A stretch of DNA of 64,000 bases from Gloeocapsopsis crepidinum LEGE 06123 (GTDB taxonomy: Bacteria > Cyanobacteriota > Cyanobacteriia > Cyanobacteriales > Chroococcidiopsidaceae): NCBI RefSeq assembly GCF_015207655.1, contig NZ_JADEWN010000003.1, positions 62,001-126,000 on the forward strand, given 5' to 3'. Below the pieces are notes generated by a model that worked only from the letters and a program-made list of their open reading frames with translations, was not told the DNA's origin and ran no database searches. The position numbers and the translations under genes are program-made. The stretch's first letter is position 1. Each line of letters begins with the position of its first letter. This document shows positions 26,008 through 32,302 of the stretch, in pieces.

Positions 26008-29000
26008 CTAACTATCCATTTGTTGAACTATTTCCATTGTTGCTACGCTAACGGTACATACTCGTTGTAAAAGAGCGATAACGTGTTCTTTATAATCAGC
26101 AAAGCGATAAGTATTAAATTTCGCTGCAATAGTGGGATCTTTCGGTTTCTTCTCTTTGTATTGATCCAAAATCCATTCTAAAGCAGAACGGTTGCCGAGT
26201 CGATATTCCCAAGCCGTTTTCGGAATACCTGCAAGCGTTGTTACTTCGTCAAGGGTAATAATTCCTGTATCTTTACCAGCTTTGAGTTTTGGCTTAGGTG
26301 TCTTATCCTCTAAAGGTAGATCAATTCGGTTTAACGAGTAAGGCGCTACAGTTTCATAATTGATGTGTAAATCCATCAACTGTTTACCCCAGTTAACCCA
26401 CTGATGGAAGTCGTCATAAAAGGGCAAACGTGGAAATTCGCGTTTTAGATTCAGTTCATATTTTGTCCGATAAGCCGGATTGTGTAAAACAGCGTAGGTG
26501 TAGTGAAAGATATCTTCTTTTGTAATTGTAGTGTCGCTGTAATGATTTTGGAATTCTACTAATCCCCAGTCAGTGATATTTTCGATACGGTTTCCCTCTT
26601 TGTCGTAGCGGTAGAGTGGGAGACATTGACAACCTGCTGGCAAACAATTCAAAACAACTACATTGCTGGAAGCCATACTATGAAAATCTTTAGGTGAAGC
26701 CATTCCAGGTATAATAATGTATTTATTTTGCTCACCATCTTTATAGAGATTAAACCATTGATAAGTCATACCGTTAAAATGCTTATCAAAGTAAAGACTC
26801 ATTTTTGTAAAAGGTCTATAGAGACTTTGCTTTATATTTTTATACTCAAACTCTTTTTCTACACGTTGGTTAAGATATTTAGTAAGTTCTCTATCCCACT
26901 TAATATCTCATTTTCTTTGTTGTATACCAGCCAATTCATCTTTATATACATCTACGCAATACTTCATCTTTTCAATAAGATTCTGCTCTGATAAATCATA
27001 AACCCATTCATCACGTTGAGTTTTTATTCCAGAGGTAAATAATTTGAATACTGCTTGTTCTGAATGCCCAGCTTTTACATCTTTATCAATTAATGGCAAA
27101 AGATTATCAAAGTCATTATCAGCTTGATTAATCCAATTATGTTTCTTATCTGGGATAATGTGTTCAAAATTAAATTCCTGAAACTTTCTCTCGACTAAGC
27201 AGCTAATCTTATTACCCCTCGTTTCATGGATGTGAAAAGGGTTACTATAAAATATTTTCGAGCCTATAGTATTTTTTTGATTAAACAAAAAAACTATAGT
27301 TATTCCTGTCATAGCACTTGTACCAAAAATAGTATGTTTCTCTGAAATAAAAACTCCATCTTTTCCAGAGATTGCCCTGACATTGCCTCCTAAATCAATA
27401 AAATAAGCAAAAGAAAACTCATCTTGAATGCATTTTCTAAATCCATCAAATGCAAGAGCATCTAAAAATGAAGAGTTGGTAATAAAGCAAATAATTCCTT
27501 CATCTACTCTATCACTGGCCCATCGATAAAAGCGAGTATACATATCATAAACAGAAATTTGATTTTGAGCTTTTCCGTACTTAACGTAAGTATCTTTAAT
27601 CCGTTTATCGATCGCTTCATAAGTACGATTGGCATTATTTTGATTAAAATTTTCTTGCTTGGCATTGTAAGGAGGATTGCCAATAATCACAGAAATCGTA
27701 CGGTCATTTTGGCGTTTAATTCTTTCAGTATTTTCTATACTCAAGGCAAACAAATCACCTTGCTTACCTGCAAAAGATGTATGCTCAAGCGTAGCAACAA
27801 AACAGATGTTATTAAACTCTTGATATTCACCCATTTTTTGCTTATAGGTGTACTCAATATTCAAGTTGGCAATATAATAAGGTAAAATTGCAACTTCATT
27901 GCAATGAATTTCATTTTTGTATTTATAGGGCAATGTACTTTTAGGTAAATACTCAATTAATTCAGTAACAAAAGTACCTGTACCAGTTGCAGGAGCTAAA
28001 ATTTCTACATTTTTATCCGATAACAACTTGCCAAAATGTTTATGCGTTAGATAATCGACACTCTCAATCATGAACCGCACAATTTCATTTGGAGTATAGA
28101 CAATTCCTAATCTATCCGCTGCTTTAGGATTATACGCTTTATAAAAATTCTCATAAACTGCTTTGAGAAACTTTTGCTTTTCGTGGTGATTGTAAATATT
28201 AGCAGCAGTTCGTCTAATGACTCCGTAATAACGTTCAATCGTACCTAAAATATTTCGACGATTACTTCCTGTAAAAAAGGTATCGATGACACGCTGTAAC
28301 TCACAAGCAACATTATTTTCTCTATGAAACTGCGATTCATTAAATATATTGATAAAAATATCTTCTGTGAGAATGTGCTGAATCATCATTTCTCGCACAT
28401 CCAATAATGTAATCTCAGGATTAATAGATTCTTGACATATCTTCCAAAAATTATCTCTACACTTACAAAACTCCGCATTCGTTTCTTGTTGCCGATCAAT
28501 CATATCTCTTAGAGTGACAAGAATCGTCGGCAAATCTTGCTTGAATATCTCAATAGCAGCGCGAAAATCTTTAACTTCAGGGCGAACGTAATTAACAAAT
28601 GTTGTAATTGCACTATCTAACGCTTCCGCATCTCTCATGGAAACGCGCATTGCTTCACTACCACTCTGAATTAAAACTGCTGTCTGGGAATCTTCAAACA
28701 GAATATTACTATCGGGATAACCTTTACTGAGTTTTTTATCAATTTCTGTATTTAAATTGTCGTATTGATCTTTACTTTCCCAATATCCCCAATCTAGACG
28801 CAAAGCATCTTTAACAGTACCATCAGGATAAACTACCTTACCATTCTTCGTTTTATAATCAAGTTCAGGAACTAATAAAAATTCTCTCGGTTTACAATAC
28901 TCATTTAGTAAGTTTTGAAAAGCTGTTCTAATAGATGTTTCTTTACGCGAACCGCCATACTGAATAAACCTATCAACTTCTGCATGATATTTATTGATTA

Positions 29001-29013
29001 ACAACAATGACAT
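26008..29013 (-). pseudogene. Type ISP/IIG restriction-modification enzyme split by an in-frame TGA
   Basis: A 1001-codon frame interrupted once, by TGA at 26908-26910 (codon 702). It would otherwise be a single polypeptide joining nuclease, adenine-N6 methyltransferase and target recognition. The nuclease motif LDWGYWESKD is at about 73-82, giving D...ExK. The methylase motif I is LAPATGTGTFV (about 339-349, with Ala where Asp is usual), and motif IV is NPPY at 446-449. After the stop the same frame continues with IKWDRELTKYL, then LYRPFTKMSLYFDKHFNGMT, the conserved start of the type ISP recognition region, and runs another 299 codons. There is no helicase domain, so it is closer to the short single-chain enzymes. 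Unless the TGA is read through, the 701-residue product lacks most of its recognition domain. The gene is AT-rich, has no HIP1 site that I saw, and is flanked by repeats; it was probably acquired horizontally. Confidence 0.85.
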
Positions 29014-29721: not shown

Positions 29722-30198
29722 ATGAGCATAGTAGCACAAGTAATAGCTCAATCTGATGATGCTAATCGGTTTTTAAGCAACACTGAGCTAGACAAGCTAC
29801 AAGACTTTTTCAGAACAGGAGAACAACGGCTAAAAGTTGCTCAAATCTTGACACAAAATGAACAAAAAATTGTGGAAGAAGGTAGCCGCCGCTTTTGGCA
29901 AGTAGTTCCGAATACACCAAGTAATAGCGGCGATCCTAAAAAGACAGCACTATGTCAAAGAGATCAAAGCTGGTATTTACGATTAATTAGCTACGCTGTC
30001 TTAGCGGGAAATATGAAACCCCTCGAAGATATTGGCGTAGATGGAATGCGAGAAATGTATACTTCTTTAGGTGTTCCTGTCGGTAATATTGGCAATTGTA
30101 TGCGTTGCCTCAAAGAAGTTGCAAGTAACATGATGAGTAGCGAAGAGGCGGCGATCGCCAAGCCTTATTTTGATTATCTGATTCGCGCAATGTATTAA
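29722..30198 (+). CDS. apcD4: Allophycocyanin alpha-type subunit, ApcD4-like
   Basis: A 158-residue phycobiliprotein alpha-type subunit. The bilin-binding Cys is at 78 in ALCQRDQSWYLRLISYAVLA, as in the ApcA/ApcD family. GDPKKT replaces the usual GGNAYG stretch before it. Trp residues at about 59 and 84 and a Cys pair at 126 and 129 (NCMRC) differ from standard ApcA. Paired with an apcB3-like gene and facing isiX, it fits ApcD4 of the low-light (LoLiP) cluster, where ApcD4/ApcB3 form far-red-absorbing allophycocyanin. Start: GGAGG lies eight bases before the ATG. The ApcD4 assignment rests on sequence character plus context. A hairpin with a T-run follows the stop. Confidence 0.82.
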   Translation: MSIVAQVIAQSDDANRFLSNTELDKLQDFFRTGEQRLKVAQILTQNEQKIVEEGSRRFWQVVPNTPSNSGDPKKTALCQRDQSWYLRLISYAVLAGNMKPLEDIGVDGMREMYTSLGVPVGNIGNCMRCLKEVASNMMSSEEAAIAKPYFDYLIRAMY

Positions 30199-30290: not shown

Positions 30291-30776
30291 ATGCAAGATA
30301 CGATTACTTCGCTTATCAATCCTGCAGATCAACGCGGTAAATATCTGGAAACTGAGGAATTGGAAAAACTCAGAAGATATTTCCAATCAGGTGAAACACG
30401 TGTCAAAGCTGCATCTGCAATTAGTAACAATGCTGCTAACATTATCCGCGAATCTGTAGCAAATTCGTTGCTGTACGGTGATATTACCTGCCCTGGTGGG
30501 AATATGTATCCTACTCGGCGTTACGCTGCTTGTATCCGCGATTTAACTCTATTTCTGCGTTATGCTACTTATGCGATGCTAGCTGCTGATCCTTCAATTT
30601 TGGATGAGAGAGTGCTTGATGGACTGAAGGAAACTTACAATTCGTTAGGTGTTCCTATCCAACCAACTGTACAGGCAATTCAAGCAATGAAGGAAGTGAC
30701 AACTCGCTTGGTTGGTGCTGAAGCGGGTGGAGAAATTGGGATGTATTTTGACCATATTTGTAATGGTTTAAGTTAA
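30291..30776 (+). CDS. apcB3: Allophycocyanin beta subunit, ApcB3-like
   Basis: A 161-residue allophycocyanin beta chain, the standard ApcB length. It starts [20 protein letters not shown]. The site of the gamma-N-methylasparagine is kept as Asn71 in [14 protein letters not shown], and the bilin Cys is residue 81. [20 protein letters not shown] and the C-terminal [11 protein letters not shown] are typical ApcB. It lies 92 bases after the apcD4-like gene, on the same strand. As the partner of ApcD4 it should form the far-red-absorbing allophycocyanin of the low-light antenna. A standard apcB is expected elsewhere in the genome. The name apcB3 is given from context. Confidence 0.85.
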
Positions 30777-30919: not shown

Positions 30920-32302
30920 CTATTTGCCATACCTGAAGGTTTCCCGTTGTGAACTCTTACGAGTTTGATAAGTTGTTTCGTAGAGTTTACGTGGCATCGA
31001 CTGTGGGTATTTTAAATTTGATTGTTCCTCAGTTGGAGTTTCATAAAATGGATTTGCGTGATTTTTGGGATAGTTAAATTCGTAAAGAACTTTTTGATTT
31101 TGTTGTGAGTTAATCCGACTCAGCTTACCATTCGCTTGTGAAGGATTATAAAGATTGTCATTTGCAGGTTGCTGATAAGCAAAAGCTGGTTTTTGCTCAA
31201 TTATGGGAGTTTCGTAGAATGTGTTTAAATTTGACTGCGGTTGGTAACTAAAATGTTTTTGATACGCCAAGTTGGGATTGGGTAAAATTTCTGAGAAAGC
31301 ATTTTTCCAAGATTCTAAGACTGGTTCAAAGTAGCTTGAAGCTAGCCCAAAATGCCAGAGAGAACCTTGAAGGACAACAAACGCAAGGTAAAAATAGGCG
31401 TTAGCTAACCAAATTCGTGATGTCGGTTCGGGATCGCCAGGAGTATAAAAGTGCGGTAAGAGAAATAACTTGAACTGCGATCGCACTCCGTAAAACTCTT
31501 CTGGATACACCAATGTGTTAAATCCACAGTAAAACGCCCCAGCAAATCCCGCGATCGCTAACCCAAATAGCGAATACCCTAAAATTGCATTCCCAGAAAA
31601 GATAAAGCGCCGTTTTACCCAATCAAAAGGCTCTTGAGAAATATGCCAAATTCCGCCTAAAATGAGAAGTGCAGCAGCATAAATATGACCGCCGACAACA
31701 TCTTCTAAGTTATTGACTGTGAATAAATGCAGGATGCGATCGCCAATCACCAAGGGATTGAGAGTCGGATTTGTAACAACTCGCACTGCACCAACATTAG
31801 CATCGTACAAACCGCCAAAAAATATTGCTTTAGCGGCGACAAGTAACGCACCTATTCCCAAGAAAATGAGGTGATTACCTAAAATAAACCCCAATTTCTG
31901 CGGGTCATCCCAGTTAAAATGATAGCGACGCGCTATTGGTTTCTCATCTTCTAAGCTTGGGGCGACTCTAGTTCGGTGAAACCAAGTACCAAATCCAAAA
32001 ACGAGCGATGAGATAATTAATACGACAGCAATCCTAAAATAAGGTTGGGTGTCAATCGCTTGATTATTTAATACACCCCAACCTTGAGTTGCTAAGCGAG
32101 GTAGAAAAAATAACCTTTGCTCATACATTGGTTGTGTTGGAGAATATCGCGCAATCTCCCATAAAATCAACGCACCAACACCAAAACACGCGATCGCAGC
32201 GTGTGCAATATGTGCAACAAGAAATGTTCCTGACAAGTTAATGAATCGGGCATTTCCAGCCCACCAAGGATACTTAACCTTGTTTTTGCTGGATGTTTGC
32301 AT
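30920..32302 (-). CDS. isiX: IsiX-like chlorophyll-binding antenna protein (CP43/IsiA family) with repeat-bearing tail
   Basis: A 460-residue membrane protein. Residues 1-335 have the six-helix CP43/IsiA/Pcb fold: WWAGNARFINLSG at the start, helix His residues in FLVAHIAHAAIACFG, GNHLIFLGIGALL, DVVGGHIYAAALLILGGIWH and LQGSLWHFGLASSYFEP. These His residues ligate chlorophyll. Next to apcD4/apcB3 this matches IsiX, the chlorophyll protein of the LoLiP cluster. Residues about 336-460 form a hydrophilic tail that IsiA and CP43 lack. It contains FYETP at 362-366 and 419-423, LYEF at 406-409 and LYET at 440-443, many Asn, Gln and Tyr, and a basic end. The gene is convergent to the apc pair. Its upstream region carries heptamer repeats. 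I cannot tell whether all IsiX proteins have this tail. Confidence 0.85.
   Translation of the reverse strand: MQTSSKNKVKYPWWAGNARFINLSGTFLVAHIAHAAIACFGVGALILWEIARYSPTQPMYEQRLFFLPRLATQGWGVLNNQAIDTQPYFRIAVVLIISSLVFGFGTWFHRTRVAPSLEDEKPIARRYHFNWDDPQKLGFILGNHLIFLGIGALLVAAKAIFFGGLYDANVGAVRVVTNPTLNPLVIGDRILHLFTVNNLEDVVGGHIYAAALLILGGIWHISQEPFDWVKRRFIFSGNAILGYSLFGLAIAGFAGAFYCGFNTLVYPEEFYGVRSQFKLFLLPHFYTPGDPEPTSRIWLANAYFYLAFVVLQGSLWHFGLASSYFEPVLESWKNAFSEILPNPNLAYQKHFSYQPQSNLNTFYETPIIEQKPAFAYQQPANDNLYNPSQANGKLSRINSQQNQKVLYEFNYPKNHANPFYETPTEEQSNLKYPQSMPRKLYETTYQTRKSSQRETFRYGK

Follow-up and report, generated by a model that had tools for sequence, protein, structure and literature searches.

The C-terminal tail of IsiX from Gloeocapsopsis crepidinum LEGE 06123 carries a series of short tyrosine motifs whose positions are conserved among its relatives. 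This tail is probably a disordered multivalent linker that docks ApcD4-ApcB3 tubes to the membrane antenna through contacts between its anchors and the tube protomers. The tail itself was already known, and the conserved tyrosine-motif architecture appears to be the new detail. The gene lies in the 64,000-nucleotide stretch of contig NZ_JADEWN010000003.1 that was analyzed as a whole (hereafter the window), with the following features:

29722..30198, plus strand: apcD4, far-red allophycocyanin alpha subunit (best PDB match 8ddy_A, E 6e-69; Ser11 present)
30291..30776, plus strand: apcB3, far-red allophycocyanin beta subunit, convergent with isiX (allophycocyanin beta family; position beside apcD4)
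30920..32302, minus strand, stop codon included: isiX, 460 aa (ORF and translation; Pfam PF00421; nearest solved relatives IsiA chains)
31298..32302, minus strand: predicted six-helix chlorophyll-antenna core and short helix, residues 1-335 (AlphaFold2 helices)
30923..31297, minus strand: C-terminal tail (residues 336-460), with predicted disorder from residue 342 on (pLDDT <50 for 342-460; aligns in 46 distinct relatives including the window protein)
31262..31264, minus strand: anchor Y347 (Tyr in 39/39 clusters)
31205..31219, minus strand: FYETP, residues 362-366, with anchor Y363 (Tyr in 39/39 clusters)
31148..31150, minus strand: anchor Y385 (Tyr in 39/39 clusters)
31076..31087, minus strand: LYEF, residues 406-409, with anchor L406-Y407 (Leu and Tyr in 39/39 clusters)
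31034..31048, minus strand: FYETP, residues 419-423, with anchor F419-Y420 (Phe in 38/39 clusters, Tyr in 39/39)
30974..30985, minus strand: LYET, residues 440-443, with distal anchor Y441 (Tyr in 35/39 clusters)

The window protein is confirmed as IsiX, a PsbC/IsiA-type antenna that has six helices and ends in a tail predicted to be disordered. Residues 11-273 match PF00421 (E 8.8e-49), TIGR03041 scores 336.2 bits (cut-off 335), and among solved structures the nearest are photosystem I-bound IsiA chains (50-52% identity), the best PDB sequence match stopping at residue 334. An AlphaFold2 model of the monomer alone (mean pLDDT 70.7) was built from a 32-row alignment made up of the window protein, all 21 tailed proteins and 10 of the 50 tail-less proteins of the named-genome scan described below. 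It places the core helices at residues 24-52, 86-112, 134-161, 199-222, 237-261 and 295-321, followed by a short helix at 326-339, and its Foldseek match to 9lzj_j (E 9.2e-26, TMt 0.93) indicates an IsiA fold with all six transmembrane helices. IsiA, the iron-stress antenna that forms a ring on photosystem I, shares this core but would be expected to stop shortly past helix six, with no long hydrophilic extension, and the tail-less ORFs examined have no tyrosine tail; that of IsiX runs to 119-125 aa. Residues 336-460 fall in the published range of roughly 100-150 aa for IsiX extensions, and apcD4 (29722-30198) and apcB3 (30291-30776) adjoin the gene. The ORF, its coordinates and the motifs at residues 362 and 419 (FYETP), 406 (LYEF) and 440 (LYET) all lie where a preliminary description of this DNA had put them. 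The same description had residues 336-460 follow the sixth helix: the tail stands, but its boundary does not, as that helix ends at about 321, the short helix intervenes and the low-confidence region covers 342-460.

Several related proteins have been described, in sources available to us in part. The IsiX extension was given as nearly 100 aa (PMC4477158) and as 127 aa, together with a ruler model (PMC10038336), and IsiA2 of Halomicronema hongdechloris has a Gln- and Pro-rich one of about 150 aa, whose function its authors left unknown (PMC6416890). IsiX of the LoLiP cluster resembles the window protein in its IsiA-like core, its extension of about 100-127 aa and the adjacent apcD4 and apcB3 (PMC4477158; PMC10038336). 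The gene order differs, being apcD4-apcB3-isiX in LoLiP and convergent in the window, as reported for Chlorogloeopsis fritschii. IsiA2 likewise combines an IsiA-like core and long extension with a cluster containing apcD and apcB (PMC6416890). One extra membrane helix was suggested for IsiX (PMC4477158), whereas the model of the window protein has none in the tail. In a thermophilic Synechococcus, IsiX is induced under low or far-red light, and membrane-associated ApcD4-ApcB3 copurifies with it (PMC10038336). The extension and the idea of a tether are thus already in print, so that the preliminary reading of a multivalent docking tail tethering allophycocyanin was sound but not new. It remains the best-supported reading (alignable tail, invariant tyrosines, co-occurrence with ApcD4, published copurification), its weak part being FYETP, which is only clade-specific. 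Elsewhere in the window's own genome (L201:4416-7061, C41), a 358-aa IsiA-like ORF precedes a 512-aa protein of the family whose long C-terminal extension is another kind of tail; to go by how PDB chain 7y3f_1 is named, this protein is perhaps a fusion of IsiA and PsaL.

Homologs were collected from samples of the phylum (386 genomes), near relatives (100), order (388) and class (388) and from a scan of named genomes, in which the best 80 of 529 loci were taken, 21 of those 80 being tailed. The 79 tailed ORFs reduce to 46 distinct sequences and to 39 clusters at 90% identity. The best 80 loci of the named-genome scan include carriers such as Chlorogloeopsis fritschii PCC 6912, Leptolyngbya sp. 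PCC 6406, Nodosilinea, Hyella, Spirulina and Gloeomargarita. In the alignment of homologs that the preliminary description had proposed as a check, the tail aligns in all 46 distinct sequences, contrary to that description's refuting case of a tail missing or unalignable in every homolog, and Y347, Y363, Y385, L406-Y407 and Y420 are invariant in 39/39 clusters. F419 is kept in 38 clusters, Y411 in 36 (Phe in the other three) and Y441 in 35. Spacing is 16 residues for Y347-Y363 and 12 or 13 for Y407-Y420 throughout, 19-25 for Y363-Y385 (22 in 26/39 clusters) and 22-24 for Y385-Y407 (22 in 36/39). A fixed spacing along the whole tail was rejected past Y420, where the distance to Y441 varies from 21 to 107 residues (21-22 in 5/35 clusters, 36-107 with further motifs between in the other 30). 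An 11-residue period was also rejected, lag 11 being depleted (1 pair against 26.6 expected) and lags 12 and 22 enriched.

The conserved unit is not the one that was originally named. Exact FYETP, put forward as the repeated motif, is a clade-specific form present in 5/46 tails and twice in 2/46; even a same-genus relative (L038) has FYETS at the first copy and LYDF in place of LYEF. What recurs is a hydrophobic residue, Tyr and Glu or Gln, and the "four copies" counted earlier are too few, since the window tail has 12 tyrosines and six anchor positions that align across relatives. This tail holds six [FLVIMYWA]Y[EQ] triplets against a shuffle mean of 0.67, and none of 20,000 shuffles reaches six; any repeated 5-mer arises in 228/20,001 shuffles, so the second FYETP is by itself only mildly unusual. 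Across the 46 tails there are 236 such triplets where 27.9 +/- 5.2 are expected (maximum 45 in 500 shuffles). No tandem repeat was found in the window DNA, and one was therefore rejected as the source of the motifs, whose repetition is visible at the protein level only. A known domain or solved structure was rejected as well, searches with the tail alone finding no Pfam family up to E 1, including no recognized linker domain, and a best PDB chain at only E 1.4.

Control sequences show few such triplets. All 175 distinct tail-less ORFs of the PsbC/IsiA family (148 with a C-terminus of at most 120 aa, 27 with a longer one of 122-162 aa) carry zero or one C-terminal triplet, which upholds, for the ORFs examined, the earlier statement that CP43 and IsiA have nothing like it. 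The best of 45 other window ORFs of at least 125 aa has two triplets in a 125-aa stretch, and among 1216 other ORFs of the compared loci a single one has three and none more. Occurrence of the tail on unrelated proteins was rejected, as all 17 matches in 234 genomes of the order are IsiX-type genes (14 full-length, three short). Between the motifs the sequence drifts. In the tail profile, which comprises 24 of the 46 distinct tails (two tails longer than 190 aa are among those left out), identity to the window tail is 54% in L058, 50% in L042 and 20-31% in the remaining rows. In eight of ten close pairs (two with saturated tail dS were left out), dN/dS is 0.11-0.25 for the tail and 0.07-0.28 for the core, the tail exceeding the core in 7/8. 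The tail is constrained, but more loosely than the antenna.

The neighboring genes are predicted, from their sequences, to encode the nanotube-forming far-red allophycocyanin FRL-AP, the alpha subunit being closest to 8ddy_A. Ser11, an ApcD4-specific residue (PMC10038336, available in part), is present in the window ApcD4 and invariant in the 29 aligned ApcD4 (29 of 42 ORFs used). ApcB3 was named by its position next to apcD4, because 13 ordinary ApcB chains in the PDB outscore 8ddy_B. ORFs like ApcD4 and ApcB3 lie beside 45/46 tailed proteins, the remaining one sitting at a contig edge that cuts apcB3. With cut-offs of E <=1e-165 for tailed IsiX and E <=1e-75 for ApcD4, the 388 genomes of the class sample contain 30 with the former, 32 with the latter, 29 with both and 33 with either. 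Each of the four exceptions has a local cause: in G894 the contig ends within apcB3, in G899 it runs out before any isiX, in G884 the tail is present and the isiX core is split across two frames (L198:3739-5248), and in G068 the tail is present and the antenna missing. The tail frame of the G884 gene is still open, its split reflecting either a sequencing error or a young pseudogene. Among the 100 near relatives, ApcD4 occurs in 11/11 genomes with tailed IsiX and, outside these, in G068 only. This genetic linkage is also compatible with simple co-function without contact.

In G068 the antenna is gone and the tail is kept. Its tail gene (L197:6107-6640) is a 178-codon ORF, 173 aa from the ATG, in which the first IsiX residues run in frame into the complete tail; compared with L071, some 900 bp of antenna sequence are missing. 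G543, a second species of the same genus, has the same antenna-less form in 182 codons (L213:5656-6201), and intact apcD4 and apcB3 adjoin both genes, which makes an assembly error unlikely. The G068 gene is preceded by a bilin reductase gene and followed by a histidine-kinase gene with PAS and GAF domains; further upstream, phycobiliprotein- and linker-like ORFs resemble, by eye, a phycocyanin cluster. Both antenna-less tails retain the anchor tyrosines, F419 is replaced by Leu, and five and three full [FLVIMYWA]Y[EQDN] triplets are left. Between the two species dN/dS is 0.43 (0.17-1.43) for the tail, 0.13 for apcB3 and 0.10 for apcD4, a tail value that leaves ongoing selection on the tail-only genes unproven. 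Tails have also grown. L178 (2682-3035) contains a 177-bp in-frame tandem duplication, its two copies 95% alike and identical at 53/59 residues, that doubles a 59-residue motif module, and the longest tails reach 192 and 228 aa, the latter (L060) with eight motifs.

G387, of the window's own genus, shows tail gene and ApcD4 lost together: the genome has no ApcD4 match, and at L212:10192-10995 isiX is broken and partly inverted beside an apcB3 fragment. An antenna-less remnant at this locus was rejected as a gene because the locus is scrambled, with tail and apcB3 fragment inverted and apcD4 absent. Separately, a Type ISP restriction-modification enzyme in the window (26008-29013, minus strand) is broken into ORFs at 26908-29013 and 26008-26802, and this stretch is mostly absent from the G387 locus.

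How might such a tail work? By homology, the core would be a thylakoid chlorophyll antenna like IsiA, with the tail expected on the cytoplasmic side. The observed part of the scheme is the set of five invariant, evenly placed tyrosine anchors of the form hydrophobic-Tyr-Glu/Gln; we infer that the tail binds the tube. Every anchor would dock an equivalent site on one ApcD4-ApcB3 protomer, so that several weak contacts could sum to hold, and perhaps template, the tube beside the membrane antenna; the antenna would then deliver its energy to photosystem I. Phycobilisome linkers such as ApcE and CpcL tie a phycobiliprotein cylinder to a membrane complex. The IsiX tail would work in a like manner to these linkers, which are also named in the available text of PMC10038336, but differs in having no Pfam family and in its predicted disorder. 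The ApcD4-ApcB3 helical nanotube repeats every 72.6 A and 720 degrees, after seven protomers, with beta bilins lining its interior (PMC10038336). In toroidal allophycocyanin, linkers sit at the exposed side of the beta bilin according to the literature available in part, and ApcB3 could plausibly offer a docking surface on the side turned to the lumen, close to its exposed bilin. With each protomer the helix rises 10.4 A; at radii of 15-25 A, the gap between equivalent sites of adjacent protomers comes to about 26-40 A, which 12-22 residues are long enough to bridge. Several observations favor a linker: the five tyrosines stay fixed in 39/39 clusters while the rest drifts to 20-31% identity outside the nearer relatives, and to these are added the triplet excess with low controls, the co-occurrence with and joint loss of ApcD4, the antenna-less tails, the L178 duplication and, from the literature, the copurification with IsiX, the membrane association and the bilin positions given above. 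Against it stand the absence of Y441 in 4/39 clusters, the variable distal spacing, the poor conservation of exact FYETP and the smaller number of full triplets in tail-only genes that retain their tyrosines.

The authors of PMC10038336 proposed, in the text available, that the extension acts as a ruler inside the tube or wraps round its outside. A single extended tail threading the lumen lengthwise and so setting tube length would suit the lineages with longer tails, as well as the most over-represented tyrosine spacing, 22 residues (93 pairs against 24.6 expected, in a score that ignores the relatedness of rows), since 22 residues at 3.3 A each give 72.6 A, the length of the tube repeat, which may be coincidence. 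However, one of the spacings ranges over 19-25, the duplicated module of 59 residues is no multiple of 22, and residues 342-460 fully extended would measure about 389 A, or some 37 protomers, against 10-13 in isolated tubes. Helical anchoring is for this reason preferred over a straight ruler, which we consider unlikely. Binding of the tail to photosystem I or some other membrane complex, to help IsiX dock there while the tube is attached elsewhere, is rather improbable. The closest solved relatives are indeed IsiA rings on photosystem I, but IsiA docks without such a tail, none of the 175 tail-less family ORFs has the pattern, and the tail tracks ApcD4, being kept next to apcD4-apcB3 in both antenna-less genes.

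Could the tail instead drive self-association of IsiX, its tyrosines acting as stickers in a disordered spacer that cluster the antenna and do not bind tubes? Its composition (Tyr 7.6%, Pro 11.0%, Gln 9.5%), spaced aromatic motifs and predicted disorder would fit. Sticker tails usually preserve composition and not exact positions, whereas single tyrosines and their spacings are fixed in IsiX tails, and this reading is very unlikely. We give least credence to the tyrosines being regulatory sites for phosphorylation or turnover and not docking anchors: the system responds to light (PMC10038336; PMC4477158, both available in part), but no kinase or protease is named in the evidence seen, and the hydrophobic residues L406 and F419, about as conserved as the tyrosines, are better suited to docking.

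If the IsiX tail is a multivalent linker of ApcD4-ApcB3 tubes, it might further represent a new linker class for phycobiliproteins: a disordered chain whose invariant tyrosine anchors match the helical lattice and which can be separated from the antenna, serving the two antenna-less species as a free, soluble linker of tubes; this wider proposal is tentative and we hold it to be doubtful as yet. Neither the tyrosine repeat nor antenna-less IsiX forms are mentioned in the available parts of the literature consulted (PMC10038336, PMC4477158, PMC6424891, PMC12279586, PMC11614940, PMC6416890 and PMC4658448; few subscription papers, without supplements). The attachment of the nanotube to the membrane was left open in the 2023 structure paper (PMC10038336, available in part), and the invariant tyrosines point out which positions mutagenesis should target. 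With the fixed spacings and the doubled module the ruler model can be tested directly, and the antenna-less genes supply a natural soluble construct for co-structure work. Were the wider proposal true, a far-red antenna tethered to the membrane would have become a soluble one in the antenna-less species.
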